Below are positions 42,451-63,486 of a stretch of 64,000 bases of DNA, in pieces; position 1 is the stretch's first letter, and the number at the start of each line of letters is the position of its first letter. The translations under genes and the position numbers were made by a program. Below the pieces are notes generated by a model. The model saw only the letters and a list, made by a program, of their open reading frames with translations. It ran no database searches and was not told where the DNA came from. The DNA lies in assembly GCF_021026345.1 (NCBI RefSeq), contig NZ_JAJNCZ010000004.1, positions 1 to 64,000 of the forward strand. Reading direction: 5' to 3'. The DNA comes from Rhizobium sp. GN54. GTDB taxonomy: Bacteria; Pseudomonadota; Alphaproteobacteria; Rhizobiales; Rhizobiaceae.

Positions 42451-42471
42451 CGTAGCGACAGGATCGGAGCC

Positions 42472-42939: not shown

Positions 42940-42943
42940 TGGG

Positions 42944-44482: not shown

Positions 44483-44519
44483 CCCCACGTTTCAATTCCC
44501 ATTTCTGAAGGAGAAGCCC

Positions 44520-45383
44520 ATGTCCGACCCACGGCTCAAACAGGCGATCGCCACCGGCGAATTCGTTGTCGCTCCCGGCGTGTTCGACCTCATTTCCGCG
44601 CTGATGGCCAATTCGATGGACTTCAAGGCGCTCTATGTGACGGGTTACGGCACGGTCGCATCCTATCTCGGCGTGCCGGATGCCGGCATCGCCACCTATC
44701 GCGACATGCTCGAGCGGATCGCGCAGATCTGCAAGCGCACCGAAAAGCCGATCATCGCCGATGCGGATACGGGCTATGGCGGGCTTCTGAACGTCCGCAC
44801 GACGGTGGAGGGATATGAGGCCGCGGGCGTCACCGCGATCCAGATCGAGGACCAGGAATTTCCCAAGAAATGCGGCCATACGCCCTTCCGGCGGGTCATC
44901 CCGACCGCCGACATGCAGCGCAAGATCGAGGTCGCGGCCAAGGCGCGCAAGTCCGACGATTTCTTGATCATCGCGCGGACCGACAGCCGCACCTCGCTCG
45001 GCATCGAGGAGGCGATCCGGCGTGGCCAGGCCTATGCCGAGGCCGGAGCGGATGTCGTCTTCGTCGAATCGCCGGAAAGCGAACAGGAAATGATCGACGC
45101 CGCCAACGCCATCAAGGCGCCGATGTTCGCCAACATGGTCAATGGCGGGCGCACGCCGCTCCTGTCGGCCGATCGGCTGAAAGAGATGGGATACGCCATC
45201 GCCATCCATCCCGCGGTCGGGTTCCTGGCCGTCACGCGTGCGCTGGAAAAGGCCTATGGCGACCTGCTCGCCAAGGGCATCACGAGCAGCGACATCGATC
45301 TCTATTCCTTCGCCGAAATGAACAAGCTCCTCGGTTTCGAGGACATCTGGTCGTTCGAGAAGGAATGGGCGGAAGCCGTCTAG
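44520..45383 (+). CDS. Isocitrate lyase/PEP mutase-family C-C lyase
   Basis: This 287-residue TIM-barrel enzyme of the isocitrate lyase/PEP mutase superfamily carries [25 protein letters not shown], the metal-binding ADADTGYGG (near 80) and the catalytic loop KKCGH with C118. A cysteine in this loop marks true lyases (isocitrate, methylisocitrate, dimethylmalate lyase) and argues against oxaloacetate decarboxylase or PEP mutase. It follows a carboxylate carrier and precedes LeuC/LeuD-like subunits, so it probably splits a 2-hydroxy di/tricarboxylate made by that hydro-lyase. The ATG at 44520 has GGAG 8 bases upstream; ATG 44475 overlaps tctA and was rejected. Confidence 0.88.
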
Positions 45384-45399
45384 GATCGGATGCCTCGGG

Positions 45400-48425: not shown

Positions 48426-49178
48426 TCAGTCGGCCGTCCATCCGCCATCGATCAGGAGAGACGCCCCCGTCATCAGGGAAGACGCGTCTGAGGCGAGAAA
48501 GACGGCGGCGCCGACGAGATCGGACGGCTGCCCCAGGCGGCCGAGCTTGATCTTCGACAGTGTCTGCCGGCGAAACTCCTCATTGTCCAGGAAGGGTGCG
48601 GTCATCGGCGTTTCGATGAAGGTCGGGCAGATGGTGTTGATCCGGATGCCGACCGGGCCGAGCTCCACCGCCAGGGCTCTGGTGAAGCCCTCGATCGCCC
48701 ATTTCGAGCCGCAATAGAGCGTTCTATTGGCGCCGCCGACATGCCCCATCTGCGACGACATGTTGATGACCGAACCCCGAACCGCGCCGGCCGCCATGAC
48801 GGCCGTCACCGCTTTCGCCGCGAAGATGGCCGCCTTGGTGTTCAGCCCGAAGACGGCGTCATAGTCTTCCTCCGTCACCTCCGAGAGCGGCTTTGGCCGG
48901 TTCGTCCCGGCATTGTTGACGAACACGTCGAAGGCGGGCTGCGCCTCGATCCGGTCCCGAAAACCGGGAATATCGGTGACATCGCAGACCAGCGGGGTGG
49001 CCCTGAGCCCTCGGGCGGCGAGCTCGGCGCAGGCGGTTTCTATCTCGTCGCGCGACCGGGCGCAGAGCGTGACCTGCGCGCCCGCCTCGGCAAGGCCTTC
49101 GGCAATCGCCCGGCCGATGCCGCGGCCGGCGCCGGTGACCAGCGCGCGCTTGCCGGTGAGATCGAAGAGGCCGCTCAT
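48426..49178 (-). CDS. Short-chain dehydrogenase/reductase
   Basis: This 250-residue classical SDR has [19 protein letters not shown] (about 14-32), [21 protein letters not shown] (Ser) and YCGSK (Tyr-x-x-x-Lys), ending IDGGWTAD. It overlaps the HisD-family gene by ATGA, so the two oxidoreductases act in one pathway, on neighbouring hydroxyl groups or on stereoisomers. It is near gluconate 5-dehydrogenase-type SDRs in pattern; the substrate is unknown. Confidence 0.88.
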
Positions 49179-50485
49179 TCGGCGGCTTCGCCATAGGCGA
49201 CGTTCTGGCCGCCATAGCGGCGGACGCGGAGATTGGCCTGCTCGGCGTGGCCGACGAAGCCCTCGAGCATGCAGAGCCGCGAACAATAGGCGCCGATCTC
49301 GGCGGCAGCGGCGTCGGTCGTGACCCTCTGGTAGGAATGGGTCTTCAGGAACTTACCGACCCACAGGCCGCCGGTATAACGCCCGGCCTTCCTGGTCGGC
49401 AGCGTGTGATTGGTGCCGATGACCTTGTCGCCGTTGGCGACATTGGTGCGCGGTCCGAGGAAGAGCGCGCCGTAGGAATGCATGTGTTCCAGGAACCAGT
49501 CGTCGCGGTCTGTCATCACCTGCACGTGCTCGGAGGCGATCTCGTTGGCGACATCCAGCATCTCCTCGTAGCTGTCGCAGACGATCACCTCGCCATAGTC
49601 GCGCCAGGAGGCGGATGCGGTCTCCGCCGTCGGCAGGATCTTGAGGATGCGTTCGATCTCCGCAAGCGTCGCCGTCGCGAGCTTCTCGGAGTTGGTGACG
49701 AGAACGGCGGGCGAATTGTAGCCGTGCTCGGCCTGCCCCAGGAGGTCGGTCGCGCAGATCTCGGCATCGACCGTGTCGTCGGCGATGACCATCGTCTCGG
49801 TGGGGCCGGCGAAGAGATCGATGCCGACGCGGCCGTAAAGCTGGCGCTTGGCTTCGGCGACGAAGGCGTTGCCGGGGCCGACGAGCATGTCGACCGGGCG
49901 GATCGTCTCCGTCCCGAGCGCCATCGCGCCGATCGCCTGGATGCCGCCGAGCACGTAGATCTCGTGGGCGCCGCCAAGATGCATCGCGGCGACGATCGCC
50001 GGGTGGGGCATGCCCTTCTGCGCCGGCGCGGCGGCGGCGATGCGCGGCACGCCGGCGACCGAGGCGGTCAGCACCGACATATGCGCCGAAGCCACCATCG
50101 GGAACTTGCCGCCCGGAACATAGCAGCCCACGGACTGCACCGGGATGTTGCGGTGGCCGAGGATGACGCCCGGCATCGTTTCGACCTCGATATCGGTCAT
50201 CGAGGCCTTCTGGGCCTCGGCGAAACGGCGGATCTGCGCCTGCGCGAAGCGGATGTCGGCCATGTCCCGGTCGGAGACCCTGTTCATCGCGGCTTCGACC
50301 TCCGACGGGGCCAGCCTGAAGGACGCGGGCGAGAAGTTGTCGAACTTCGCCGACAGATCGCGCACCGCGGCATCGCCGCGTGTCTCGATGTCCTTGAGCG
50401 TCGTCTCGACGAACGACCTCACTTTCGCGTCGTCGTCCGCGCGTTCGGCTGCGGGCTTGCCCTGCTTCAGATATCGAATGGCCAT
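49175..50485 (-). CDS. HisD-family dehydrogenase, catabolic (sulfopropanediol dehydrogenase HpsN-like)
   Basis: This 436-residue protein of the histidinol dehydrogenase fold oxidises a primary alcohol to an acid in two NAD-dependent steps. Zinc and catalytic sites are kept: [12 protein letters not shown] (Gln, His), ASEHVQVMT (Glu-His), [14 protein letters not shown] (Asp) and EGFVGHAEQ (His). The loop [23 protein letters not shown] and the ending differ from biosynthetic HisD. No his genes are near; its partners are an SDR, a LacI regulator and a TRAP carrier. That setting fits the HpsN group, which oxidises 2,3-dihydroxypropane-1-sulfonate. Sulfolactate lyase genes are not seen, so the sulfonate assignment is only a hypothesis. 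Confidence 0.85.
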
Positions 50486-50579: not shown

Positions 50580-51560
50580 TTGAAGCCGACAGCCAAGCAG
50601 GTCGCCCATGAGGCGGGGGTTTCGATCTCGGCCGTATCGCGTGCATTCTCACCGGGATCGTCGATCGATGCCGACAAAAGGCAGCGCATCCTGCAGGTTG
50701 CCGTGCAACTGGGCTATACGAGCCCGGCGCGGCGAACCGCGGAGGTGATCTCCGCCGGAACCGTCACGCTCGTTGCCGGCGACCTTGCCAATCCGTTCTA
50801 TCCCCTCGTGCTCGACACGCTCGCCAAGGCGCTTCAGGCGGTCGGGCGACAATTGCTCGTCTATGCGATCCCGCCGCAGACGGACATGGACCAGTTGACG
50901 CCGCAGATCCTTGCGGCCCGCCCCAACGCGCTCGTGGTGACGTCGGCGAGGCTGACCTCCGGCATGGCCCAGGCCTGCCGGCAGCATGGCATCAAGGTGG
51001 TGCTCCTGAACCGGATCCAGCGCGATGTCCGCGTCAATGCGGTCGCCTGCGACAACCATGCGGGCGGGCGGGACGCCGCGACCTTTCTGATGGCGCGCGG
51101 GCGGCGTCGCATCGGGCTCATCGGCGGCATTGCCGATACTTCGACCCATCGCGAGCGGGTGCAGGGCTTCCGCGAAGTCCTGCAGGAGGGAGGACAGTCC
51201 ATCCTTGCGGAGGCGACAGGCGACTATACCTACCGCGGCAGCTACGTCGCGGTGCAGTCGATGCTGTCAAGGAAGGACCGCCCCGACGCGCTCTTCTGCT
51301 GCAACGACATCATGGCGCTGGCGGCGATCGATGCTGCGCGCGAACGCGGGCTTTCGGTCCCTGCCGATCTCTCCATCATCGGGTTCGACGACATTCCCAT
51401 GGCCGGCTGGACGTCCTATCGCCTGACGACGATCCGCCAGCCGGTCACGCGCATGGTCAGCGAAGTCGTGAGCCTGATTCACGACGGCGCGCACGTTCCG
51501 GTCGACGAAACGACCACGAGCATCCTGCCCGGAAAGCTGATGATAAGAGGCAGTGCCTAG
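50580..51560 (+). CDS. LacI-family transcriptional regulator
   Basis: This 326-residue regulator has a helix-turn-helix (AKQVAHEAGVSISAVSRAFSPGSSI, about 4-28), a hinge helix to about 55 and a sugar-binding-like effector domain (LVAGDLANPFYPLVLDTLAKAL; VACDNHAGGRDAATFLMARGRRRIGLI; LFCCNDIMALAAIDAA; GFDDIPMAGW). The start is TTG at 50580 with GGAGG 5 bases upstream. It is divergent from the HisD-family/SDR operon and upstream of the TRAP operon on the same strand. Confidence 0.9.
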   Translation: MKPTAKQVAHEAGVSISAVSRAFSPGSSIDADKRQRILQVAVQLGYTSPARRTAEVISAGTVTLVAGDLANPFYPLVLDTLAKALQAVGRQLLVYAIPPQTDMDQLTPQILAARPNALVVTSARLTSGMAQACRQHGIKVVLLNRIQRDVRVNAVACDNHAGGRDAATFLMARGRRRIGLIGGIADTSTHRERVQGFREVLQEGGQSILAEATGDYTYRGSYVAVQSMLSRKDRPDALFCCNDIMALAAIDAARERGLSVPADLSIIGFDDIPMAGWTSYRLTTIRQPVTRMVSEVVSLIHDGAHVPVDETTTSILPGKLMIRGSA

Positions 51561-51614: not shown

Positions 51615-51662
51615 TTGACTGGCCGGGTAAATTCGCCATGGTTTGTGCACACGTTTGCGCAC
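51615..51662 (+). promoter_or_regulatory. Promoter and LacI-type operator of the TRAP operon
   Basis: TTGACT (51615-51620) is followed 17-18 bases later by a weak -10 (ATGGTT/TGGTTT). Overlapping and following it is TTGTGCACACGTTTGCGCAC (51643-51662), which matches the perfect palindrome at 55879-55898 at 17 of 20 positions, centred on ACGT. The placement over the transcription start fits repression. Confidence 0.65.
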
Positions 51663-51728
51663 CATCAGTAGGCACGAAGGAGGTCGTGCCTGCAGCCAGG
51701 GATGCGAAAATTGGGACGGGAGGAATAG

Positions 51729-52721
51729 ATGAAACTCAAAGTGTTTGCCGTGCTGTTGACGGCGGTTCTTTCCATTGCGGTCGCGCCGGGCAATGCCGCC
51801 GAGCGCACGCTGCGTGTGGCAACGAGCGTCCCGCACAATCACTATCTCACCAGGGTCATCAAGGAATTTGCGGCCAACGTCTCGAAGCGGACGAATGGCG
51901 AGCTTGCCTTCGAGTTCTACGATTCCGGTTCTCTCGTCAGCGACCAGCACATGGACGAGGCCGTGGCGAACGGCACGATCGACATCGGGATCGCCTCGGC
52001 CTCCATCCTCGCCGGTACGGTGCCGGCGCTCAACGTCTTCGCCGTCCCCTTCTACTTCGACAAGCGCGAAAAGCTCGACCGGTCCGTTCTGCCGGGAATG
52101 CCGATCCGCGCCATGCTCGACGAGCGGATCAACGAGACGGGATCGCGGGCGCTGTTCTGGATCCCCTATGGTTTCATCACGATGATCACGCGTGACAAGG
52201 AAGTGCATACGCCTGCCGACATGGGCGGGCTCAAGATCCGGACCTTCGGCTCGACGGTGAGCGAATTCGTCGAGGCTCTCGATGCGGCGCCCGTCGTCAC
52301 CAGCGGCGGCGAACAGTTCCTGGCGCTTCAGCGCGGCATCGTCGATGGCGGGCTCACCGGCTGGCCATCGGTCGAGGAGCGCCGGCTTTTCGAGGTCTCC
52401 CGCTATGTGATCGCGACCGACCACATGTACGAGACGCATTTCGCGCTGATGAGCGAAAAGACCCTCGACGACATGCCGACCGAACTCCGAGACATCTTTC
52501 GCGAGGAGGCGGCAAAGCTGGAGACCGTGCTGATGGACCGCATCTTCGATGCGACGAAGCACACCCGGGACGTCCTTTCGACGAAGATGACGATCGTCGA
52601 TCTCACCCCGGAGGAAGTGGCCGCCTGGAAGGAGAAGACCGCGCCGGTGGCAAAGACGTTCTACGAGAACGGCGACGAACTTGCCCGCGCGGTGTTCAGG
52701 GAAGCCCAGAAGATCCAGTAG
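51729..52721 (+). CDS. TRAP transporter substrate-binding protein (DctP type)
   Basis: This 330-residue periplasmic protein has a signal peptide to about residue 23 (VFAVLLTAVLSIAVAPGNAAE). The DctP fold shows YDSGSLVSDQHMDEAVANGTIDIGIAS, FWIPYGFITMITRDKEVHTPADMGGLKIRTFGS (with the carboxylate-binding arginine), and the GLTGWPSVEERRLFEVSRYV section. A GGGAGG site precedes the ATG. The LacI-type operator lies about 67 bases upstream. Confidence 0.92.
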   Translation: MKLKVFAVLLTAVLSIAVAPGNAAERTLRVATSVPHNHYLTRVIKEFAANVSKRTNGELAFEFYDSGSLVSDQHMDEAVANGTIDIGIASASILAGTVPALNVFAVPFYFDKREKLDRSVLPGMPIRAMLDERINETGSRALFWIPYGFITMITRDKEVHTPADMGGLKIRTFGSTVSEFVEALDAAPVVTSGGEQFLALQRGIVDGGLTGWPSVEERRLFEVSRYVIATDHMYETHFALMSEKTLDDMPTELRDIFREEAAKLETVLMDRIFDATKHTRDVLSTKMTIVDLTPEEVAAWKEKTAPVAKTFYENGDELARAVFREAQKIQ

Positions 52722-52734
52722 GCGCTGCCGCGCT

Positions 52735-52755
52735 CCGGCCCATTTGCCCGGCCGG
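52735..52755 (+). terminator. Short hairpin between DctP and DctQ genes
   Basis: CCGGCC/GGCCGG with a 9-base loop lies 13 bases after the DctP stop, in a 148-base gap that is unusually long for this operon. It has the same position in the gene order as the stronger hairpins after other binding-protein genes in this window. Confidence 0.4.
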
Positions 52756-52869
52756 CAGGATCATGCAGTCAAATCAAAACGATAGGCGGTGGCGGTAGCC
52801 ACCGCGAAGGTCAACTGCGCTCCGGCGCAAGCACCGGGATCAGGTGTGAATATTCGGGAGGACCGCTTC

Positions 52870-53400
52870 ATGTCCACGGAAGAAAAGAAATGGGTCGCCG
52901 CGACAGAGGCGACCGTCATGAAGATCGGCGAGCTCAGTTCGTGGATCTACCTCCTCATCGGCATCATCGTCGCCTATGAGGTGGCGCTCCGCTACCTCTT
53001 CAACAGCCCGACCGACTGGGTCGAGGAGACCTCGCGGCTCGGCATGGTCTGGGCAACGTTCCTGATCTTTCCGGCCTGCATGAGCCGGCGCCAGTTGATC
53101 TCGATCACGCTCCTTTCCGATGCGCTCGGCGATCGCGGCAAGGCGGCGCTCGAGGCGATCAGCTTCGCCGTCATCTGTGTGGCCTGTGCGCTGGTGACCT
53201 GGCATGCGGCAGAGGCCGCGATCGACGCGGCGATGGTGGGTCGGGCCACGGCGAGCGTTCTGCGTATCCCCTACTGGCTCTTCTATCTTCCCGTCGCGCT
53301 CGGCTTTTTCCTGTTCTTTCTCCAGGCCGCACTCGAACTGGTCCTGCTTCTGGTCACCGGCCAGCGGCGCAAACTCGAACTGACGCACGAGGAAATCTGA
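52870..53400 (+). CDS. TRAP transporter small permease (DctQ type)
   Basis: This 176-residue protein has four spans (about 15-37, 48-65, 90-112 and 132-155) and the DctQ region SPTDWVEETSRLGMVWATFLIFPA. The ATG at 52870 follows GGGAGGACCGCTTC; an earlier ATG at 52789 would add residues with no counterpart in the family. It ends one base before the large permease. Confidence 0.9.
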   Translation: MSTEEKKWVAATEATVMKIGELSSWIYLLIGIIVAYEVALRYLFNSPTDWVEETSRLGMVWATFLIFPACMSRRQLISITLLSDALGDRGKAALEAISFAVICVACALVTWHAAEAAIDAAMVGRATASVLRIPYWLFYLPVALGFFLFFLQAALELVLLLVTGQRRKLELTHEEI

Positions 53401-53401
53401 G

Positions 53402-54682
53402 ATGGAAAGCATGCTCGTTCTCATCGCGCTTTTCGTGTTTCTCTTTGCTGGGCTCCCGGTCGGGATCGCGCTGACAACAACGGGCATCGGCCTGTTGATG
53501 CTGAAGGGCGTGCCGCTTGCCAGCGTGTCGATGGAGTTCCTCGGCTCGGTGAACAATTTCATCCTTCTCGCCGTGCCGGTCTTCCTCCTGACCTCGAACA
53601 TCCTCCTGAAGGCGGGCGTCGCAAAAGACCTCTTCGACGCCGTGCAGCGGTGGGTCGGCGGCATCAGGGGAGGGGTCGCGATTGCGACGATCATTTCCTG
53701 CGGAATTTTCTCAGCGATTTCAGGATCTTCGGTGGCTGTTGCGGCGATGATCGGAACCGTGGCCATCCCCGAGATGACCGGGCGCGGCTATGATCGTCGC
53801 TTCGTCATGGGCACGCTGGCGGCAGGCGCTACGCTCGGCATTCTCATTCCGCCGTCCATTCCGCTCATCATCTATTCGGCGGTCGCCGAGCAGTCCACGG
53901 CGTCGATGTTCCTGGCCGGCGTCGGGCCGGGTCTCTTCCTGATCGGGGCATTCCTCATCTATTGCGTCGCCAAGTCGTTCATGGGAGCCGCCCCGGAAGT
54001 CGAAGCCGGCGCCTCGGAACCGGGCGGGCGCATGGCGGCCAGCATCCGCGCCCTGCCGACCATCGTCATCGCGCTGACGATGATCATCGGCATCTATGCC
54101 GGCGTCTTCACGCCGACGGAATCGGCTGCGGTCGGGCTGGTGATGACGCTCGTCTACGTGTTCGGGATCCGACGCGGACTATCCTTCGCGGACTTCCGCG
54201 ACGCCGTCTTCGGCGCCGGTCTCACCACCGCCAACCTGCTGCTGATCATCGCCGGGGCAAATGTCTTCGGCAAGGCGATCATGCTCTATCGCATTCCCTA
54301 CGAGATCTCGGAGTGGATCGCCGCCAACATCGAATCGGCCGGTCTCTTCATGCTGACCGTGACGGCAGTGCTGCTGCTGCTGGGGCTGTTCCTCGAGGGG
54401 ATCGCGATGATTCTGATCGTGCTGCCGGTGCTGCTGCCATCGCTCGGCGTCCACGGCATCGATCCGGTCTGGTTCGGCATCTACTTCGTTCTGATGATCG
54501 AGATCGCGCTGATTACGCCGCCGGTGGGGATGAACCTCTTCGTCATCCAGTCCGTGGCCAAATCGAGCCTGAAGGAGGTGATGTACGGGGCCTTGCCCTA
54601 TGTCTTCATCATGCTGGGGACCGTGCTTGCGATCTACTTCTTCCCGGCGATCGTCACCTATATCCCCTTCGGTGGCGGATAG
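53402..54682 (+). CDS. TRAP transporter large permease (DctM type)
   Basis: This 426-residue, about 12-span protein carries the DctM signatures LLAVPVFLLTSNILLKAGVA, CGIFSAISGSSVAVAAMIGTVAIPEM, GILIPPSIPLIIYSAVAEQSTASMFLAG, TPTESAAVGL and ITPPVGMNLFVIQSVA. It completes the DctP-DctQ-DctM carrier and ends at a terminator shared with the converging LacI gene. Confidence 0.94.
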   Translation: MESMLVLIALFVFLFAGLPVGIALTTTGIGLLMLKGVPLASVSMEFLGSVNNFILLAVPVFLLTSNILLKAGVAKDLFDAVQRWVGGIRGGVAIATIISCGIFSAISGSSVAVAAMIGTVAIPEMTGRGYDRRFVMGTLAAGATLGILIPPSIPLIIYSAVAEQSTASMFLAGVGPGLFLIGAFLIYCVAKSFMGAAPEVEAGASEPGGRMAASIRALPTIVIALTMIIGIYAGVFTPTESAAVGLVMTLVYVFGIRRGLSFADFRDAVFGAGLTTANLLLIIAGANVFGKAIMLYRIPYEISEWIAANIESAGLFMLTVTAVLLLLGLFLEGIAMILIVLPVLLPSLGVHGIDPVWFGIYFVLMIEIALITPPVGMNLFVIQSVAKSSLKEVMYGALPYVFIMLGTVLAIYFFPAIVTYIPFGGG

Positions 54683-54695
54683 GTGCATCGCTTCG

Positions 54696-54721
54696 GCAGG
54701 GGGCGCGACGGCGCCCTCTGC
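54696..54721. terminator. Bidirectional terminator hairpin between DctM and LacI genes
   Basis: The stem GCAGGGGGCGC/GCGCCCTCTGC (11 pairs, one wobble) with a GACG loop fills the 38-base gap between converging genes and reaches the first base of the LacI stop codon. Confidence 0.6.
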
Positions 54722-55746
54722 TACGCGCGGCCGGTGGAACCGCGGACGACCAGCTTTCCGCGCATGGCGATCAGTTCGTCGGGGAGGTTCGGGTCCAGCG
54801 TGCGTGCCTGCAGCAGTTCGAAGGCGCGCTGGATCATCAGGGACAGAGGCTGCTGGATGGTCGTCAGGTCATAGATCGGCCTGGCGGATGCCGCCACGCC
54901 GTCGAAGCCGGCCACCAGGATCTCGCCGGGCACGTCGACAGAGGCCAGCCGCAGGGCGTCGAGGACGCCCATGGCCATGATGTCGCTCAGTGCGAACACA
55001 GAATCCGGCCGCTGGTCGGCCGGCAGTCCGGCTATTTCCCTGCCCGCTTCGAAGCCTCCGTCGTAGTTGGAGTGACCGTCGAACCGATGCGAAAGCGTGA
55101 AGCCGGCCTGCTCCAGCTCGGCGACGAAACCCTCTTCCCGTTCGCGGGACGTGGAACTGGTCGACGTCGTATAGACGAGGCCGAAGCGCCGGCGGCCGCG
55201 CGCGATCAGAAGACGGGCGATCTCGGCGCCGCCGGCCCTGTTGTCGCAGGTGACGAAGCAGCCATGCGAGAGCGCGACGCGGTTGACCATGACGAGCGGC
55301 ACGTTGTTCTGGGCGCAGATGTCGGCGGCCTTCGATGACAGGATGGCCGACGAGATGATGCAGCCGTCGACCTGATACTGGATCAGTGCCTGGGCGGTCG
55401 TATCCTCGATCGGGCCGGCGCCCGCATGGATGATGAGCAGGCGGAAGCCGAGTTTCTCCGCCTGGCGCGTCGCCTCATGCAGAAGCTCCGTATAGAAGGG
55501 GTTCTCGGCGGGGCCCAGCACCAGGCCGTACAATCCGCTCTTGCCGGAGGAGAGCGTGCGCGCCAGCGCATTCGGCATGTAGCCGTGCTCTTTCGCCAGC
55601 CCCAGAATGAGATCGCGCGTCTTCTGCGAGATGCGGGTGTCGCCCTTCAGCGCGCGCGTCACCGTCGACGGTGCCACACCCGCCAGTTCCGACAGGGTGA
55701 CGACCGTCGCCCTGCGCGGTGTCGATGGGGTCAGGATCGAGCTCAT
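54721..55746 (-). CDS. LacI-family transcriptional regulator
   Basis: This 341-residue regulator has a helix-turn-helix (VTLSELAGVAPSTVTRALKGDTRIS, about 16-40), a hinge (YMPNALARTLSSGKS) and an effector domain (YGLVLGPAENPFYTELLHEATRQAEKLGF; VTCDNRAGGAEIARLLIARGRRRFGLV; VFALSDIMAMGVLDAL). It lies between the TRAP operon and the divergent monooxygenase operon. Each of these has a copy of the TTGCGCAAACGTTTGCGCAA-type operator, so this protein is the best candidate for the common repressor. Confidence 0.9.
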   Translation of the reverse strand: MSSILTPSTPRRATVVTLSELAGVAPSTVTRALKGDTRISQKTRDLILGLAKEHGYMPNALARTLSSGKSGLYGLVLGPAENPFYTELLHEATRQAEKLGFRLLIIHAGAGPIEDTTAQALIQYQVDGCIISSAILSSKAADICAQNNVPLVMVNRVALSHGCFVTCDNRAGGAEIARLLIARGRRRFGLVYTTSTSSTSREREEGFVAELEQAGFTLSHRFDGHSNYDGGFEAGREIAGLPADQRPDSVFALSDIMAMGVLDALRLASVDVPGEILVAGFDGVAASARPIYDLTTIQQPLSLMIQRAFELLQARTLDPNLPDELIAMRGKLVVRGSTGRA

Positions 55747-55845: not shown

Positions 55846-55898
55846 TTGACATTCCGCACGCAAACCGGTTGGATTGGATTGCGCAAACGTTTGCGCAA
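55846..55898 (+). promoter_or_regulatory. Promoter and perfect LacI palindrome of the monooxygenase operon
   Basis: TTGACA (55846-55851), a 17-base spacer and a weak TTGGAT precede the palindrome TTGCGCAAACGTTTGCGCAA at 55879-55898, which is perfectly self-complementary over 20 bases with the central CG expected for LacI-family operators. It would block the transcription start region. A related copy lies at 51643-51662. Confidence 0.75.
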
Positions 55899-55931
55899 AA
55901 AATTGCATTTTATGAAGGTATGGGAGGAACG

Positions 55932-57299
55932 ATGTCCGCTTCAAAACGCCAGATGAAAATGGTGGGCTTCCTGCAGGCGCAGAACTGCTCCATCGCGCCG
56001 GGCTCCTGGCGGCATCCGGCCGGTGCCACCGATTTTCTGTCCGCCGAGTACTTCCAGCGCATCGGTCGCATTCTCGAGGAAGGAAAGTTCCATCTTGCCT
56101 TCTTCGACGATCGTCTGGCGATGCCGGACATCTACGGAGACGATCACAGGGAGGCGGTCGAAAACGGCGTGCGCGTCGTCAAGATGGATCCGGTCTCGAT
56201 CATCACGGCGATCGGCATGGCCACCAGCCGCATCGGCCTCGGCATCACCTATTCCACGACTTATTACGAGCCCTTTCACGTCGCGCGCCTGTTCGGCACG
56301 CTCGACCTGATGACCAAGGGCCGCGCCGCCTGGAACGTGGTGACCTCGCTCAACAATTCGGAGGCTGCCAATTTCGGCCGCACCGAACACCTCGCTCACG
56401 ACCTGCGCTATGAGCGGGCCGACGAATTCATGGAGGTCGTGACCGGGCTGTGGAACAGCTGGGAGCCCGACGCGCTGATCGTCGACAAGGAGACCGGCCA
56501 GTTCGCCGATCCGAAGAAGGTTCACAGGCTCGATCACAAGGGCAAGTATTTCAGCTCGCGCGGTCCGCTGCCGGTGCCGCCGTCGGCTCAGGGCCGTCCG
56601 GTGCTCATCCAGGCGGGCCAGAGCGGCCGCGGCCGCCAGTTCGCGGGCAAGTGGGGCGATCTGATTTTCGTCGTCTATCCGACGATCGAGACTGGCCAGA
56701 AGCAGTATGCCGCCGTGAAGGAGGAGGTCGCCGCCGCCGGCCGCGATCCGGACGAGGTGGCAATCTGCCCGGCCTGCTATGTCTGCGTCGGCGAAAGCCT
56801 GGAGATCGCCGAGGAGAAGCGCGAATATATCCGCGCGCTCGCCAAGCCGATCGATGCCGTCGTGCTTCTTTCCGAAGCGCTGAACTTCGATTTCGCCAGC
56901 AAGCCGATGGACAGCGAGTTCACCGACGAGGAGTTGCAGAAGCTGTCCTGGTCCGGTTTCAAGGAGCGGGTGATCACGCTGAGCGGCAAGCCCAACCCGA
57001 CCGTGCGTGATTTCGTGCACTATTCCGGGCGCGGCACGATCGGCGAATTCCCGATCTTCTGCGGCACGCCCACCATGGTCGCCGACCAGATGGAAGAGTG
57101 GTTCACGTCCGGGGCCTGCGACGGCTTCGTGCTGGCCGCCACCCATACGCCCGGCGCCTACGAGGACTTCGTCCGTTATGTCGTGCCGGAACTGCAGCGC
57201 CGCGGCGTCTACCAGAAGGACTATGCAGGCACGACGCTTCGCGAAAACCTCGGCATTTCCATGCCCACCCATCCTGCCCAGCGCCAGGCGGCCGAATAA
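55932..57299 (+). CDS. LLM-class FMN-dependent monooxygenase (NtaA/SnaA/DszA type)
   Basis: This 455-residue luciferase-like monooxygenase uses reduced flavin supplied by a separate reductase. NtaA-type segments are GSWRHPAGATDFLSAEYFQRIGRILEEGKFHLAFFDDRLA, TYSTTYYEPFHVARLFGTLDLMTKGRAAWNVVTSLNNSEAANFG, and RGPLPVPPSAQGRPVLIQAGQSGRGRQFAGKWGD. Family members attack C-N or C-S bonds or insert oxygen (nitrilotriacetate, EDTA, dibenzothiophene sulfone, sulfonates). The ATG at 55932 has GGGAGG 4 bases upstream, 33 bases after the LacI palindrome. It heads a seven-gene operon that also encodes a flavin reductase (60420), a likely partner. Confidence 0.93.
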   Translation: MSASKRQMKMVGFLQAQNCSIAPGSWRHPAGATDFLSAEYFQRIGRILEEGKFHLAFFDDRLAMPDIYGDDHREAVENGVRVVKMDPVSIITAIGMATSRIGLGITYSTTYYEPFHVARLFGTLDLMTKGRAAWNVVTSLNNSEAANFGRTEHLAHDLRYERADEFMEVVTGLWNSWEPDALIVDKETGQFADPKKVHRLDHKGKYFSSRGPLPVPPSAQGRPVLIQAGQSGRGRQFAGKWGDLIFVVYPTIETGQKQYAAVKEEVAAAGRDPDEVAICPACYVCVGESLEIAEEKREYIRALAKPIDAVVLLSEALNFDFASKPMDSEFTDEELQKLSWSGFKERVITLSGKPNPTVRDFVHYSGRGTIGEFPIFCGTPTMVADQMEEWFTSGACDGFVLAATHTPGAYEDFVRYVVPELQRRGVYQKDYAGTTLRENLGISMPTHPAQRQAAE

Positions 57300-57319
57300 G
57301 CAGCAGTCGGAGAAGATTG

Positions 57320-58681
57320 ATGAAAGAGTTCAGAATGCTCTCGACGAGCGGTATCCTCGGCTATGGCTATGCGGAGGAATCGCTCAAGATCGGAATGTCC
57401 TGGGAGCCGCATGTCATCGGTTGCGATGGCGGCAGCACCGATCCGGGCCCCTATTATCTCGGTGCCGGCAAATCCTTCTGCTCGCGTCTTTCGGTGAAGC
57501 GCGACCTGCGGCTGATGCTGCAGGCGAGCATTGCGGCAGGTATTCCCTGCATCATCGGCACGTCCGGCGGCGCCGGCGGCGAGCCGCATCTGCAGGATAC
57601 GGCGGCACTGGTGCGTGAGATCGCGCGGGAAGAAAAGCTGTCCTTCAAGATGGCGCTGATCCATTCGGAACAGAGCAAGAGCGATCTTGCGAAATGGGCC
57701 GAAAGCGGGCTGACCAGGCCGCTTGCCAAGATGAGGCCGCTCGATCGCGGCATGATCGACAACGCCACCCGCGTCGTCGGCATGATGGGACCGGAGCCGT
57801 TTGCCAGGGCGCTCGACGAGGGTGCGCAGGTCATCCTCGCCGGCCGCAGCAGCGACCCGGCGCAATGGGCGGCCCCCGCCATCCGCGCCGGCATGGCGCC
57901 GGCTCCATCCTGGTATGCCGGCAAGATGCTGGAATGCGGCGCCGAGCCGACCGTGCCGAAGGAGCCGGACTGCATCTTCCTGCGCGTCCGCGACGACCAC
58001 GTCGTCTGCGAACCGCCGAACCCGATCCGCCGCTCGACGCCGCTTGCGGTCGCGAATTTTGCCCTGCACGAGAATTCGAGCCCGATCCACCATGTCGAGC
58101 CGGGCGGGTTGCTCGATACGGCCAATTGCCGCTTCGAGGCGATCAGCGATCGTGCAGTCAAGATCGACGGCATGACCTGGACGCCGGCGGAGCGCTACAC
58201 GGTGAAGCTCGAGGGCGTCGAGATGGCCGGTTACCGTGCGATTGCCATCTGCGGCACGCGCGACCCGATCCTGATCTCGCAGATCGACGACTATCTCGCC
58301 ACCCATCGCGAGAAGGTGGCGGTGAAGGCCGCGTCCTTCGGCGTGCAGCGCGAGGACTACCAGATGATCGTCCACTGCTACGGCAAGGATGGCGTCATGG
58401 GCGGCTGGGAGCCGGTCAAGCAGATCACCAGCCATGAACTTGGCTTCGTCATCGAAGTGGTCGGCAAGACGGCGGATGTCGCCAATGCGGTGATCGCCAT
58501 GGCGCGCACCTCGATGCTGCATGCGGACTTCCCGGGGCGCCTCTGCAAGGAAGGCAACATGGCCTTCCCGTTCAGCCCGTCGGATATCGACATGGGGCCG
58601 ATGTACCGCTTCAGCATCTTCCATACGGTCGAGGTCAGCGATCCTTGCGCCCTCTTCCCCATCGAATACGAGAAGGTTTGA
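57320..58681 (+). CDS. AtuA-like DUF1446 protein
   Basis: This 453-residue protein of the DUF1446/acyclic terpene utilisation AtuA family has a conserved N-terminal SGILGYGYAEESLKIGMSWEPHVIGCDGGSTDPGPYYLG, IIGTSGGAGGEPHLQDT, VILAGRSSDPAQWAAPAIRAG and SPIHHVEPGGLLDTANCRFE. The reaction of this family is not established. It starts 20 bases after the monooxygenase and is followed 2 bases later by a DUF4387 gene, its usual small partner. The pair therefore probably forms a two-subunit enzyme that processes the monooxygenase product or a coenzyme A/keto acid derived from it. Confidence 0.85.
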   Translation: MKEFRMLSTSGILGYGYAEESLKIGMSWEPHVIGCDGGSTDPGPYYLGAGKSFCSRLSVKRDLRLMLQASIAAGIPCIIGTSGGAGGEPHLQDTAALVREIAREEKLSFKMALIHSEQSKSDLAKWAESGLTRPLAKMRPLDRGMIDNATRVVGMMGPEPFARALDEGAQVILAGRSSDPAQWAAPAIRAGMAPAPSWYAGKMLECGAEPTVPKEPDCIFLRVRDDHVVCEPPNPIRRSTPLAVANFALHENSSPIHHVEPGGLLDTANCRFEAISDRAVKIDGMTWTPAERYTVKLEGVEMAGYRAIAICGTRDPILISQIDDYLATHREKVAVKAASFGVQREDYQMIVHCYGKDGVMGGWEPVKQITSHELGFVIEVVGKTADVANAVIAMARTSMLHADFPGRLCKEGNMAFPFSPSDIDMGPMYRFSIFHTVEVSDPCALFPIEYEKV

Positions 58682-58683
58682 CC

Positions 58684-59001
58684 ATGGCCCTCATCAGAGA
58701 CATTGCCCAGATCTGCAAGAGCAAGAACGCCGGTCCGTTCAACGTGACGATCGACGTGCTGTTCGAGGACCACGCGGTCTATCACAAGGTGAAGGACACG
58801 GGGGTTTTGAACGCCGCGCTGTTTACGAAGCTCTACGGCGTGAAGGAAGAGGACGTGCTGTTCACGCCCTATGACACGGCGGCTGCCTTCAAGGCGACGT
58901 TTCCCCGCGCCATTCCGGCCGGCGATATCGGCGATACCGACGTCTATGGGGCGCAACAGCATGCGCCGCTGCTGGACGTCGACATTCCGCTCGAAAAATA
59001 A
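58684..59001 (+). CDS. DUF4387 family protein, partner of AtuA-like protein
   Basis: This 105-residue protein carries the DUF4387 pattern IAQICKSKNAGPFNVTIDVLFEDHAVYHKVKDTG and ends with RAIPAGDIGDTDVYGAQQHAPLLDVDIP. DUF4387 is found directly after DUF1446 genes or fused to them, which indicates a complex. No catalytic motif is known. The ATG at 58684 begins two bases after the AtuA-like stop. Confidence 0.85.
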   Translation: MALIRDIAQICKSKNAGPFNVTIDVLFEDHAVYHKVKDTGVLNAALFTKLYGVKEEDVLFTPYDTAAAFKATFPRAIPAGDIGDTDVYGAQQHAPLLDVDIPLEK

Positions 59002-59079
59002 CGTTCACTATGCCTGGGTCCTTCTGCCGGGGAGGCGGGAAGATCCAGGCGGTCGCCAATTCAGCTCGGGGAGGAGCTT

Positions 59080-60423
59080 ATGGCCACAGAAACATCCGAC
59101 ATCCGCAAGGTCGCATTGGCGAGCTTCATCGGATCGACCCTGGAATGGTACGATTTCTTCATCTTCGGTACCGCCACGGCACTCGTCTTCAACAAGCTGT
59201 TCTTTCCCGCATTTGATCCGGTGACCGGCATGATCGCGGCTTTCGCGACCTTTGCCGTCGGGTTCATCGCTCGCCCGCTGGGCGGCATCGTGTTAGGTCA
59301 CTATGGTGACCGGATCGGCCGCAAGGCCATGCTGGTGCTCAGCCTGACGATGATGGGTGGCATAACCTTCCTCATCGGCCTACTTCCGACCTATGCGGTG
59401 CTCGGTGTCGGTGCGCCGATCCTTCTGACCTTGCTCCGCTTCCTGCAGGGCTTTGCCGTCGGTGGCGAATGGGGCGGTGCGACGCTGATGGTGGTCGAGC
59501 ATGCGCCCAACAAGACGCGCGGCTTCTTCGGCAGCTGGCCGCAGATGGGCATTCCGGCGGCTCTTCTTTTGTCATCCGGCATGATGGCGCTCGTCGGTGG
59601 GCTGACGACGCCGGAACAGTTCATGGCCTGGGGATGGCGTATCCCGTTCCTGTTCAGCGGTGTTCTGCTTGTCTTCGGCATCTATCTGCGCCGACGCCTG
59701 GCGGAATCGCCGAGCTTCCGGAAAATGAAGTCCGAGGGTGAGCAGGAGCGCCTGCCCATCGCCGAAGTGCTCGGCAAGCACGGCAGGAAGACCGCACTTC
59801 TCGTCGCCTGCCAGGCGGCGGAGAACACGAGTTTCTACGTCGTGGCCGTCTATTCTCTGGTCTATCTCACCACTGTGGTCGGCATCGATCGCGCCACCGC
59901 CTTGAACGCCCTGATGATCGCGGCCGTGTTCTGCTTCGCCGCCCAGCCGCTGTTTGCCGGGCTGTCCGATCGCATCGGCCGCAAGCGCGTCTTCATGGGC
60001 GGGATGATCTTCAACGGCCTCTTCATCGTGCCGTTCTTCCTGTTCCTAGATACGGCCAGCGTGTTCTGGATCACGGCGGCGATGACGCTCTCGATCGTGT
60101 TCGGACAGGCGACGACGCAATCCACGCAACCCAGCCTCTTTGCCGAGCAGTATGGTGCGTCGGTGCGCTACAGCGGTGTCTCCGTCGCCTACCAGTTCGC
60201 CACCGTGCTCTGGAGCGGGCCGACGCCGATGATCGCCGCATCGCTCTGGGCCTGGTCGGGAAGCTGGATACCGCTTGCCTGCTATATCGGCGCCGCCGCC
60301 TGCCTGTCGGTCCTGACGATCATTCCGCTCCGCGAGGCGGCCGGTGCCGATCTCGAAGGCGAGCGGAGCGAAGACCGGCGCGAACCGGTGTCTTCGACGC
60401 GCCCCGCCCACCAGTATCCGTGA
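59080..60423 (+). CDS. MFS transporter, metabolite:H+ symporter (MHS) family
   Basis: This 447-residue, 12-span major facilitator protein carries the MHS family opening (SFIGSTLEWYDFFIFGTATALVF), FIARPLGGIVLGHYGDRIGRKAMLVLSL (the loop 2-3 motif) and RFLQGFAVGGEWGGATLMVVEHAP. MHS carriers import organic acids and related solutes (shikimate, ketoglutarate, betaines) with protons. GGGGAGGAG precedes the ATG. It gives the monooxygenase operon its own uptake route besides the TRAP carrier that seems to share the operator. Confidence 0.93.
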   Translation: MATETSDIRKVALASFIGSTLEWYDFFIFGTATALVFNKLFFPAFDPVTGMIAAFATFAVGFIARPLGGIVLGHYGDRIGRKAMLVLSLTMMGGITFLIGLLPTYAVLGVGAPILLTLLRFLQGFAVGGEWGGATLMVVEHAPNKTRGFFGSWPQMGIPAALLLSSGMMALVGGLTTPEQFMAWGWRIPFLFSGVLLVFGIYLRRRLAESPSFRKMKSEGEQERLPIAEVLGKHGRKTALLVACQAAENTSFYVVAVYSLVYLTTVVGIDRATALNALMIAAVFCFAAQPLFAGLSDRIGRKRVFMGGMIFNGLFIVPFFLFLDTASVFWITAAMTLSIVFGQATTQSTQPSLFAEQYGASVRYSGVSVAYQFATVLWSGPTPMIAASLWAWSGSWIPLACYIGAAACLSVLTIIPLREAAGADLEGERSEDRREPVSSTRPAHQYP

Positions 60424-61418
60424 AACAGGGAGCCTCTGGCCCAATCGCCATGTCCAATGACCAACGCATTCTCCGCAACGCCCTTGGATCCTTCGCAACA
60501 GGCGTCACCGTCGTCACCACCCGTGCTGCCGACGGCAAGGATATCGGCCGCACCGCCAACAGCTTCAGCTCTGTCTCGCTCGATCCACCTATGATCCTCT
60601 GGAGCCTTTCGAAGACATCCTCGAGCTTCGAGGACTTCCGGCAGGCGGAGCATTTCGCCGTACATATACTCTCGGCGGATCAGAGCGACATATCCGGCCT
60701 GTTCGCGAGCAAGAAGGAAGACAAGTTCGAGGGGCTGACGGTCGAGCGGGGGGAGGGCGACATCCCGCTCCTGAAGAGCTGCGCGGCCCGTTTCGAATGC
60801 CGGACCACCTATCAGTATGAGGGTGGCGACCACATTATCTTCGTCGGCGAGGTCACCGGTTTCGAGCATTCCAGCACGCCGCCGCTGGTCTTTCATGGCG
60901 GCCAGTACGGCCGGCTTATCCGCCATGCCGGCGAGGGCACGTCCTTCGAGAAGAAGGACAGCAGCCTTTCGCCGGACGACTTCATCTACCAGATCTCGCG
61001 CGTCTTCTATCAGATCCGCAGCGACGCGATGGCGGAACGGCGCCGGCGCGGCTGGAGCGGCGCGGACTATGCCGTACTCACCCTGCTCGGCCATGAGGAT
61101 GGCAGAACATTGGACGATATTCGCGAGATCGGCCGTTCACGTGGAGACGAGATCACAGACGAGACGATCGACAAGCTCACGTCCATCGGGCTGATCAAGG
61201 TCGGGGAAGCGATGCCGCGACGGGCGCATCTGACCGGCGAGGGACGCCAGGCGATGATCGAGATCGTCGCCATGCTGAAGGCGGCGGAAGCCGAGAGTCT
61301 CGCCCTCCTCGACGAGAACGAGGTCTGGGTGTTGAAACAGCTTCTCAATCGGCTTGCGACATCGCGGGACAACGGCTGGCCGCCGGTCCGCCAGCCGGCG
61401 GCGCTTGCATCGGCTTGA
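60420..61418 (+). CDS. Flavin reductase fused to a MarR-like C-terminal domain
   Basis: This protein has about 332 residues. Residues ~15-165 form a flavin reductase domain of the two-component monooxygenase type (RNALGSFATGVTVVTTRAADGKDIGRTANSFSSVSLDPPMILWSLSK; HIIFVGEVTGFEH; LVFHGGQYGRL). Residues ~185-310 look like a MarR-type winged helix (DYAVLTLLGHEDGRTLDDI; LTSIGLIKVGEAMPRRAHLTGEGRQAMIEI; LDENEVWVLKQLLNRL). The same fusion occurs in the 4-hydroxyphenylacetate hydroxylase reductase of Acinetobacter, where the MarR part is an effector-sensing autoinhibitory domain. It probably feeds FMNH2 to the LLM monooxygenase. The start is GTG 60420 (GTGA overlap); ATG 60450 matches typical N-termini and is a fair alternative. 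Confidence 0.87.
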   Translation: MKQGASGPIAMSNDQRILRNALGSFATGVTVVTTRAADGKDIGRTANSFSSVSLDPPMILWSLSKTSSSFEDFRQAEHFAVHILSADQSDISGLFASKKEDKFEGLTVERGEGDIPLLKSCAARFECRTTYQYEGGDHIIFVGEVTGFEHSSTPPLVFHGGQYGRLIRHAGEGTSFEKKDSSLSPDDFIYQISRVFYQIRSDAMAERRRRGWSGADYAVLTLLGHEDGRTLDDIREIGRSRGDEITDETIDKLTSIGLIKVGEAMPRRAHLTGEGRQAMIEIVAMLKAAEAESLALLDENEVWVLKQLLNRLATSRDNGWPPVRQPAALASA

Positions 61419-61443
61419 TCAGACCCGGATATTGGAGAGTGTC

Positions 61444-62325
61444 ATGACCCGATTTGCTATCGGAGACATTACGGTCTCTGCCATATGGGAGATGGAGGAC
61501 ACGTCCTTCCGGATGAAGTCCTTCTTTCCGCTCGTCACGGAAGAGATGCTGGCGCGGGAGCAGACCTGGCTCACGCCGACTTATCATGATCCCGATACCG
61601 ACCAGATCAAGCTCAGCATCCATGCCTGGCTGATCGATACCGGCCGGCACAAGATTCTCGTCGATACCTGTGTCGGCAATGACAAGCAGCGACACGCCCG
61701 CAAGCAGTGGTCGGATCTGAACACGCCCTTCCTCGAACGCCTGCGTGCGGCGGGCGTCGAGCCCGAAGCGATAGACTATGTCTGCTGCACCCATCTCCAC
61801 GCCGATCATGTCGGCTGGAATACGAGGCTCATCGACGGACGCTGGGTGCCGACATTCCCGAACGCCAGATATATCTTCGGGCGGAAGGAATATGATTACT
61901 GGGCGGAGAAATACGGCTCCGATCCGGGCAGCCATCATCTCGCAGCCTATAGCGACAGCGTGTTGCCGGTCGTGGAGACTGGGCAAGTGGTGCTGGTGGA
62001 CGACGGATATGAGCTGGACGGCTGCCTGACGTTCAAGCCGGCGCCCGGCCACACGCCCGGCCATGTCGCCATCTGGCTGCATTCCAACGGTCGAGAATGC
62101 GTATTTTCGGGCGACATCATTCATCACCCGATCCAGCTCGCCTATCCGCAACTGAGCTGCATGGGTTGCGAGGATCCGGCTCAATCAGTGCGAACCCGAA
62201 GCGCGTTGCTGGCTGGCATTGCAGATACGGAGACGATGCTGATGACCGGGCATTTTCTGGCGCCGCATGCGGCTCATATCGAAACCGCGGGCGAATGTTT
62301 TCGCGTACGCTGCTCGGAATGCTAG
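61444..62325 (+). CDS. Metallo-beta-lactamase-fold hydrolase
   Basis: This 293-residue protein carries the di-zinc motif CTHLHADHVGWN (about 113-124), the next histidine in APGHTPGHVAIW, an aspartate in VFSGDIIHHP and a late histidine in TGHFLAPH. It resembles AHL-lactonase/N-acyl hydrolase-type members, but in this operon it is more likely a lactone, ester or thioester hydrolase acting on a pathway intermediate. GGAGAG lies 5 bases before ATG 61444, 25 bases after the flavin reductase. Confidence 0.88.
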   Translation: MTRFAIGDITVSAIWEMEDTSFRMKSFFPLVTEEMLAREQTWLTPTYHDPDTDQIKLSIHAWLIDTGRHKILVDTCVGNDKQRHARKQWSDLNTPFLERLRAAGVEPEAIDYVCCTHLHADHVGWNTRLIDGRWVPTFPNARYIFGRKEYDYWAEKYGSDPGSHHLAAYSDSVLPVVETGQVVLVDDGYELDGCLTFKPAPGHTPGHVAIWLHSNGRECVFSGDIIHHPIQLAYPQLSCMGCEDPAQSVRTRSALLAGIADTETMLMTGHFLAPHAAHIETAGECFRVRCSEC

Positions 62326-62361
62326 CTTCGCCGGCAACAGGTTGAATTCAGGGAGAGAGAC

Positions 62362-63486
62362 ATGAAGATCAGAGCCGCAACGCTTCGCCAGATGGGCGCG
62401 AGCATGCCTTATGCCGAGAGCAAGCCGCTGGACATCGCCGAGCTTGATCTGGAGCGCCCGCGGCAGGGGGAAGTTCTGGTGCGTATCCGCGCAGCCGGGC
62501 TCTGCCATTCGGATCTCTCCGTCATCAACGGCAGCAGGCCGCGTCCGCTGCCGATGGCGATCGGGCATGAGGCGGCGGGCGAGGTGGTCGAACTCGGCGA
62601 AGGCGTCGATGATCTCGAAGTCGGTGATCACGTCGTGCTTGCCTTCGTGCCAAGCTGCGGCCATTGCCTGCCCTGCTCGGAAGGGCGACCGGCGCTTTGC
62701 GAGCCGGGCGCTGCGGCAAACGGCAAGGGCACATTGCTCACCGGCAGCATCCGGCTGAAATACCAGGGAGAACCGGTGCATCACCACATCGGCTGCTCGG
62801 CCTTTGCCGAACATGCAGTCGTGTCGCGCCGCTCGATCGTGAAGGTGGACAAGGATCTGCCGTTCAACGAGGCGGCGCTGTTCGGCTGCGCCGTGCTGAC
62901 GGGTGTCGGCGCAGTGGTCAATACGGCAAAGGTGCAGGCGGGCCAGACGACCGTGGTCATCGGCCTCGGCGGCGTCGGGCTGGCGGCGCTGCTCGGCGCG
63001 ATCTCCGCCGGTGCCGCACAGGTGATTGCCGTGGATCTTTCCGATGAGAAGCTTGAGATCGCCCGTCAACTGGGGGCGACGGCGACGGTGAATGCGCGCG
63101 ATGCGGATGCGGTCGAAAAGGTCCGGCAGCTCACCAATGGCGGCGCAGATTTCGCTTTCGAATTCGCAGGCTCGGAAAAGGCGCTGGAAAGCGCTTACAA
63201 GATGACGCGCCGCGGCGGCACGACAGTCACGGCCGGACTGCCGGCGCCGACAGCCGCCTTGCCGGTCAACATCGTCAGCCTCGTGGCCGAGGAACGCACG
63301 CTCAAGGGCAGCTATATCGGCACCTGCGTCCCGGTTCGCGATATTCCGCGCTATGTCGCGCTCTACAAATCGGGGCGCCTTCCGGTGAACAGGCTTCTCA
63401 GCGGATCGATCCGCCTGGACGACATCAACGAAGGCTTCGACCGCCTGCACAGGGGCGAGGTTATCCGGCTGGTCGTCGAAATGTGA
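62362..63486 (+). CDS. Zinc-dependent alcohol dehydrogenase, class III-like
   Basis: This 374-residue MDR-family dehydrogenase carries catalytic zinc ligands in AGLCHSDLSVING (Cys-His), GHEAAGEV and FGCAVLTGVG, and the structural zinc loop CGHCLPCSEGRPALC (about 98-112). The NAD-binding motif is VIGLGGVGLAALLGAISAGA. It closes the monooxygenase operon, 36 bases after the hydrolase, and probably oxidises an alcohol released from the substrate. Confidence 0.92.
   Translation: MKIRAATLRQMGASMPYAESKPLDIAELDLERPRQGEVLVRIRAAGLCHSDLSVINGSRPRPLPMAIGHEAAGEVVELGEGVDDLEVGDHVVLAFVPSCGHCLPCSEGRPALCEPGAAANGKGTLLTGSIRLKYQGEPVHHHIGCSAFAEHAVVSRRSIVKVDKDLPFNEAALFGCAVLTGVGAVVNTAKVQAGQTTVVIGLGGVGLAALLGAISAGAAQVIAVDLSDEKLEIARQLGATATVNARDADAVEKVRQLTNGGADFAFEFAGSEKALESAYKMTRRGGTTVTAGLPAPTAALPVNIVSLVAEERTLKGSYIGTCVPVRDIPRYVALYKSGRLPVNRLLSGSIRLDDINEGFDRLHRGEVIRLVVEM

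Follow-up and report, generated by a model that had tools for sequence, protein, structure and literature searches.

A LacI-associated gene cluster of Rhizobium sp. GN54 combines a putative two-component FMN monooxygenase with homologues of citramalate lyase

Results and Discussion

The first 64,000 nucleotides of contig NZ_JAJNCZ010000004.1 of Rhizobium sp. GN54 (assembly GCF_021026345.1), referred to here as the window, contain a predicted operon in which an LLM class flavin mononucleotide (FMN)-dependent monooxygenase is encoded next to an AtuA/DUF1446 protein and a DUF4387 protein. A preliminary description of this DNA had listed seven closely spaced genes behind a LacI palindrome. All seven were found on the + strand where they had been placed, and an operator scan located the palindrome TTGCGCAAACGTTTGCGCAA at 55879–55898. 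The genes encode, in order, the monooxygenase (55932–57299), AtuA (57320–58681), DUF4387 (58684–59001), an MHS-type MFS symporter (59080–60423), an NADH:flavin reductase with a C-terminal MarR-like domain (60450–61418, with an alternative GTG start at 60420), a metallo-beta-lactamase (MBL)-fold hydrolase (61444–62325) and a zinc alcohol dehydrogenase (62362–63486), separated by 20, 2, 78, 26 (or a 4-base overlap), 25 and 36 bases. A local LacI-family repressor (54721–55746, − strand; Pfam LacI, Peripla_BP_3) diverges from the operon. No promoter-like site was revealed in the operon region by a sigma-70 scan (1.7 expected), and the eight terminator-like sites are near chance (5.1 expected). Since these scans gave no signal, probable co-transcription of the seven genes is deduced from their spacing.

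The step carried out by the DUF1446–DUF4387 pair had been regarded as unknown in the preliminary description, a view that has to be revised as citramalate lyase structures match both subunits. AtuA (PF07287, 57 bits, cut-off 22.8) is a homologue of citramalate lyase subunit A (CmlA) and DUF4387 (PF14330, 117 bits; PDB 9erq_B, E 1.5e-21) of subunit B (CmlB). The matches extend over almost the full length of both proteins, and both CmlAB-type subunits are present in the window as an adjacent pair. With 43.2% identity to CmlA (188/435), the window AtuA differs from the lyase of known structure (PDB 9ERQ, 9EVF), and in the AtuA tree CmlA lies in the other half, beyond a 100/99 branch, so that the two do not group. 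Agreement is nevertheless found at 94 of the 126 near-invariant positions of 41 LLM-linked AtuA rows; for near-invariant D/E/H/K/R/N/Q positions it amounts to 27 of 36, whereas nine differ. The window pair is further distinguished by its tie to an FMN oxygenase, while some other CmlA relatives are found near a MutL-type gene (L064, L069, L070, L075; fetched loci carry L numbers, sampled genomes G numbers). Since 9EVF contains ADP and pyruvate, the AtuA–DUF4387 reaction is probably nucleotide-linked.

The window gene is the only PF07287 match in the whole genome. In the Atu pathway of acyclic terpene utilization, further atu genes accompany atuA. Based on a search confined to AtuA itself, terpene catabolism was rejected, since the genome has this single AtuA-family gene and CmlA is by far its better match. 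In the open PMC literature, at title and abstract level, no paper on this gene set was found and none on CmlAB, 'CmlA' itself not being among the search terms.

To describe the conservation of the module, the best 80 of the loci listed by a capped DUF4387 search of genome contigs were used, complemented by plasmid and genome searches, and a locus was called linked if an LLM of at least 58% identity is no more than 2.5 kb away from AtuA or DUF4387. The proposed co-occurrence of the monooxygenase with DUF1446 and DUF4387 was borne out by 41 fetched linked loci besides the window, from alpha- and betaproteobacteria; two of them (L003 and L106) belong to one Fulvimarina genome. The hosts include Rhizobiaceae, Aurantimonadaceae, Paracoccaceae, Roseobacteraceae, Methylobacteriaceae, Acetobacteraceae/Roseomonadaceae, Acidocellaceae, Alcaligenaceae and Comamonadaceae. 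In a tree of 62 LLM rows, 41 of the 42 linked rows fall into one group (80/70), within which 38 rows are held together at 95/88 and 28 alphaproteobacterial rows at 100/100; L063 and all 17 unlinked rows lie outside. The gene order changes to AtuA-DUF4387-LLM in L030, L035 and L038 with the linkage retained.

Most of these rows were reached via DUF4387, so the linkage is over-sampled and LLM-driven searches provide the fairer view. In the family sample, 4 of 394 genomes possess the LLM (E≤1e-150), each of them in a linked locus, and it is missing from the six other listed members of the genus. Three of the nine plasmid records that match the LLM at E≤1e-130 are AtuA-linked. An even sample of the class contains the LLM (E≤1e-130) in 11 and DUF4387 in 35 of 385 genomes, and the two are adjacent only in the window's own genome; in G080 and G195 an LLM of 61–62% lies about 7 kb from DUF4387, and the accompanying AtuA shows just about 35%. 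The phylum draw yielded LLM matches in 10 of 398 genomes, and the nine besides the window come from one genus at 57–58%; the sole neighbourhood inspected among these nine (G361, L101) has no AtuA/DUF4387 link. These uneven counts indicate a patchy module, for which horizontal transfer is a reasonable inference. The doubt that DUF1446/4387 might belong mainly to unrelated contexts is thus justified in part: the family as a whole mostly occurs elsewhere, but its closest branch is LLM-linked.

Two individual loci were noted as well. A plasmid of the archaeon Halomarina (L084:7650-10685) has a row of genes whose annotations are NTF2-like, LLM enzyme (of shorter length), AtuA and DUF4387; here an LLM enzyme may have become associated independently with the AtuA–DUF4387 lyase. 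In a Rhodospirillaceae metagenome-assembled genome (L063:2600-3508), a sulfotransferase-domain gene is found directly 5' of LLM-AtuA-DUF4387, and a second, distant LLM-like match lies close by.

Some close LLM homologues are accompanied by a different lyase system. In Variovorax VAI-C (L085), Pseudosulfitobacter (L107, one inspected of three listed plasmids) and Rhodococcus opacus (L108, one inspected of two), with LLM homologues of 63, 62 and 53%, no AtuA–DUF4387 match was obtained in the locus, which instead encodes a CoA-transferase of family III together with a CoA-ester lyase. Both systems are present in L012, L015, L019 and L020 (Belnapia) and in L023 (Dankookia), where the CoA pair lies just 5' and AtuA–DUF4387 3' of the LLM. 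L018 has the CoA-transferase without the CoA-ester lyase, and in L010 and L013 a 52% CoA-transferase is located at greater distance with less similar lyases. Leaving out each locus's own reference, a CoA-transferase (≥50%, ≤8 kb) was counted in 11 of 60 LLM rows, 7 of which also have the lyase. By the same thresholds, neither was found in any of 46 DUF4387 loci that lack this LLM, a control set in which 32 loci offer at least 5 kb on both sides and which leaves out the window stub L001 and the contig-cut L004.

The lyases of L085, L107 and L020 have as best NCBIfam model RipC (172–182 bits, below the cut-off of 375), which according to the model is the citramalyl-CoA lyase of itaconate degradation. 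Their CoA-transferases are nearest to the succinate-glutarate and succinyl-CoA:mesaconate types, also below cut-off. Among PDB entries, the L107 lyase most resembles malyl-CoA/beta-methylmalyl-CoA lyase (324 and 268 bits), in comparison to 100 bits for the mitochondrial citrate-lyase-beta-like protein. Similar to the itaconate/citramalate route, which employs a CoA-transferase III with RipC/Ccl or malyl-CoA lyase, such enzymes thus adjoin close LLM homologues that lack AtuA–DUF4387; in contrast to the window pair, that route is CoA-dependent, belongs to other families, is absent from the window operon and is matched only below the NCBIfam cut-offs. Two unrelated lyase systems beside one kind of oxygenase point towards a malate- or citramalate-type product, and we read the CoA pair and AtuA–DUF4387 as putatively interchangeable ways to cut it. 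Together with the homology to CmlAB, this substitution makes a citramalate lyase-like reaction of AtuA–DUF4387 the best-supported step among those predicted here. On the conjugative 35-kb Pseudosulfitobacter plasmid, a gene annotated ribB was also observed directly 3' of the LLM and flavin reductase genes (L107:8237-9322), a placement that suggests that flavin supply travels with the oxygenase.

The assignment of the monooxygenase as an NtaA/DszA-type enzyme was corroborated. It scores 501.8 bits against TIGR03860 (NtaA/DmoA), above the curated NCBIfam cut-off of 279.7, and its best PDB match is DszA/BdsA (E 1.8e-125). The FMN- and substrate-contacting residues of BdsA were taken from PMC5819316. 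Five of the six FMN contacts (V137, S139, H156, R159, Y160) are identical in the window protein and in 41/41 rows, and the sixth, L230, reads Q. In the pocket for dibenzothiophene (DBT) sulfone, F12, F56 and F246 are retained, whereas His20 and His316 are His in none of the 41 rows (I21 and A316 in the window). The same paper reports more than 90% activity loss for the Phe variants of H20 and H316. DBT-type desulfurization was rejected due to the absence of both histidines, and in further contrast to DszA/BdsA no other Dsz-type protein occurs among the ten window proteins scanned and the transporters here are of organic-acid type. CmoJ, DszA and YxeK, members of the LLM superfamily, cleave C−S bonds via flavin peroxides according to PMC10863075, which renders this general chemistry plausible for the window enzyme. 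Its substrate cannot be read from the sequence alone.

The partner reductase consists of a flavin reductase domain (PF01613) and, as had been proposed, a C-terminal MarR-like fold, although the latter taken alone gives no Pfam MarR match. For the corresponding domains of relatives, Pfam yields weak matches in L003 (HTH_27, E 0.0042) and none in L017. This architecture is shared with reductase C1 of 4-hydroxyphenylacetate (4-HPA) hydroxylase (HPAH; AbHpaC, 5ZC2), which is gated by 4-HPA through its MarR-like domain, as stated in PMC10816480. The window protein differs from C1 in that its partner is an LLM enzyme and not HPAH, and in having relatives with IclR_C or FCD at the same place. It remains below the cut-off of the HPAH C1-type model NF045919 (210.1 versus 340 bits), and its reductase domain is about equally far (49–50%) from C1, L034 and L030, the tree forks there being open. 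Among ten betaproteobacterial-type reductases scanned, eight carry IclR_C and one FCD at the place of the MarR-like domain (L027, L030, L034, L036, L037, L042, L045, L083, L086); other relatives have short reductases. A sensor-domain exchange on one ancestral reductase was considered as a conceivable origin of this variety. No paper on flavin reductases with IclR or FCD domains was found in the open PMC literature when at least four of five related terms had to be present. The presence of MarR-like, IclR or FCD domains suggests ligand gating, which for the window reductase may proceed by relief of autoinhibition as in C1. Putative sensor gating is supported by the domain architecture in part of the carriers. 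In Fulvimarina, a nitroreductase-family gene lies between the reductase and a HisD-like gene (L003:11590-12267).

Upstream of the operon the window encodes a TRAP transporter consisting of the solute-binding protein DctP (51729–52721, +; Pfam DctP, NCBIfam TRAP_S1 above cut-off), the small permease DctQ (52789–53400, +) and the large permease DctM (53402–54682, +; Pfam DctM, TIGR00786 above cut-off). DctQ was assigned, without a family scan, from the position of its open reading frame between DctP and DctM, and its homologues take the same position in L002, L003, L014, L017 and L021. A second copy of the operator with 3 mismatches in 20 lies 5' of dctP (51643–51662). At up to 3 mismatches, these two TTGCGCAAACGTTTGCGCAA-like sites compare to 0.01 expected in the window. 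The 18-mer core at 0–2 mismatches occurs at just these two places (55879, 51643) in the 5.57 Mb genome; exactly 3 mismatches give two more sites, the same number as in the reversed control. In raw counts without a shuffled control, an operator-like site (≤3 mismatches, 18-mer) is located within 350 bp 5' of the LLM in 16 of 42 AtuA-linked loci including the window, all 16 alphaproteobacterial. Of the 9 loci with this dctP, again including the window, 8 have such a site 5' of the gene, L104 being the exception. Next to the LLM, 19 of the 41 linked loci encode a LacI homologue (53–90%). The sequence evidence thus shows that DctPQM and the LLM operon have one predicted operator in common, which places the transporter (51643–54682) in the regulon. 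The MHS symporter (TIGR00883, 412 bits, below the cut-off of 443) is a probable second entry route. LacI control had been recognized beforehand; in extent, the preliminary description was correct for the seven genes and overlooked the second operator, the TRAP genes and the dehydrogenase pair described below.

This pair consists of a short-chain dehydrogenase/reductase (SDR; 48426–49178, −; Pfam adh_short) and a HisD-like dehydrogenase (49175–50485, −; Pfam Histidinol_dh). It adjoins the regulon in the window, L002, L104 and L105, lies between the reductase and TRAP genes on the LLM strand in Fulvimarina (L003/L106), and occurs also in L006, L008 and L053; a HisD-like gene is linked in 8 fetched loci. 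SDR homologues near the LLM locus show 56–79% identity in L105, L106/L003, L002, L053, L006 and L008 and 49% in L104. The nearest solved relatives of the HisD-like protein include (R)-dihydroxypropanesulfonate (DHPS) dehydrogenase, its best match (379 bits), and HpsN (371 bits), in comparison to at most 266 bits for true HisD. HpsN is defined by the motif GRY(A/S)H with a sulfonate-contacting His in PMC11382572. The diagnostic motif is absent from the window enzyme, which reads GKFPM with Met in place of this His, and the corresponding motif in its eight linked relatives is GK(F/Y)P(M/L) or GRYPM. DHPS/sulfolactate catabolism was rejected for this reason.

The remaining operon genes are less constant, and the implied conservation of all seven as one unit did not hold. 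The zinc alcohol dehydrogenase (PF08240 + PF00107; ≥50% identity) was found only in L002, L104 and L105, and an iron-type alcohol dehydrogenase takes its place in the Methylobacterium locus L082. The lactonase/MPH-like MBL hydrolase (PF00753; best PDB matches 4xuk, MPH and dihydrocoumarin hydrolase) is present in 5 fetched loci and recurs in Methylobacterium (L006, L082). Distant MBL-fold relatives occur in betaproteobacteria (Pfam, L034, L042, L086), as do MmgE/PrpD proteins. MHS carrier, MBL hydrolase and zinc alcohol dehydrogenase are lineage-specific additions.

Further features of the window include a second LacI-family regulator (50580–51560, +; Pfam LacI + Peripla_BP_3) with 84–87% homologues in L002, L104 and L105. 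A second organic-acid cluster on the + strand (41452–46815) comprises TctC, TctB and TctA look-alikes, judged by eye, and continues on the same strand with an ICL/PEP-mutase family lyase at 44475 and an aconitase-family large subunit at 45400. The Halomarina AtuA locus likewise has isopropylmalate-dehydratase-type and PEP-mutase-type genes. A link between this cluster and the AtuA pathway is possible. No tRNA gene is present in the 64-kb window.

Taken together, we consider the locus to be a catabolic regulon for a small organic anion, repressed by LacI and inducible by its substrate, in which an oxygenase feeds a CmlAB-like lyase, with a rough probability of 0.57. The substrate would be taken up by DctPQM. 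By analogy with HPAH C1, the reductase would use NADH to form FMNH2 only upon binding of a pathway ligand to its MarR-like domain, and FMNH2 would diffuse to the monooxygenase, where the substrate may be oxygenated and a C−X bond broken or a ring opened. In this lineage, the MBL hydrolase could then open a lactone- or ester-type intermediate, while the alcohol dehydrogenase, and probably the HisD-like/SDR pair, would adjust alcohol groups. The resulting citramalate- or malate-type beta-hydroxy diacid would be split by the CoA-independent AtuA–DUF4387 into pyruvate (or another 2-oxo acid) and acetate; relatives would perform the same cut by CoA-transferase and citramalyl/malyl-CoA-type lyase. 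The sequence of uptake, oxygenation and hydrolysis suggested earlier thus finds support as a possibility.

The coexistence of both lyase systems in five loci would allow for two different steps. AtuA–DUF4387 might then catalyze another reaction on the CmlAB fold without C−C cleavage, with the CoA pair of Belnapia acting at a different step. The position of CmlA in the opposite half of the AtuA tree and the nine deviating near-invariant residues are consistent with this alternative; the three LLM loci in which the CoA pair replaces AtuA–DUF4387, and the agreement with CmlA at 94/126 near-invariant positions including 27/36 D/E/H/K/R/N/Q, argue for a lyase, and we regard the alternative as unlikely.

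Two other readings concern the bond that is cut. Membership of the LLM in the NtaA/DmoA family would fit oxidative C−N cleavage of an N-substituted amino or imino acid, the freed acid half being cut by the lyase, and amidohydrolase or isochorismatase-family genes are annotated near LLM/AtuA loci of Diaphorobacter (L083) and Halomarina. However, no nitrogen-handling family is present among the scanned operon genes of the window, and the Halomarina LLM is a different, shorter protein, making this explanation quite improbable. A sulfonate pathway, in which the TRAP system imports a DHPS-like compound, the HisD-like enzyme (as HpsN) and the SDR oxidize it and the DszA-like LLM cuts the C−S bond, would account for the closest PDB relatives of both enzymes and for the transporter. 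With the DBT-sulfone histidines and the DHPS dehydrogenase motif both absent, also from the linked relatives, neither known sulfur substrate is supported, and the HisD-like gene is confined to its 8 linked loci; we therefore assign this pathway a very low likelihood.

Conclusion

The conserved gene set, for which no description was found, represents a genuine new combination of known parts. More tentatively, at slightly less than even odds, it may stand for an aerobic pathway, widespread and so far undescribed, whose two-component FMN oxygenase converts a small natural organic acid into a citramalate/malate-type acid that is cut either by the CoA-independent, nucleotide-linked AtuA–DUF4387 or by the CoA pair, the reductase being gated in many carriers by ligand-binding domains of three transcription-factor families, MarR, IclR and FCD. 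DUF1446/DUF4387, a large and poorly annotated pair usually labelled terpene utilization, would thereby be linked to a defined reaction within an oxygen-dependent context, and the function of the family becomes testable. As one lyase type is exchanged for another next to the same kind of oxygenase, the range of products that this oxygenase must form becomes narrower. Further, the reductases offer a natural set of fusions between a single type of catalytic domain and three types of sensor domain, from which one may learn how cells prevent NADH waste and peroxide formation.

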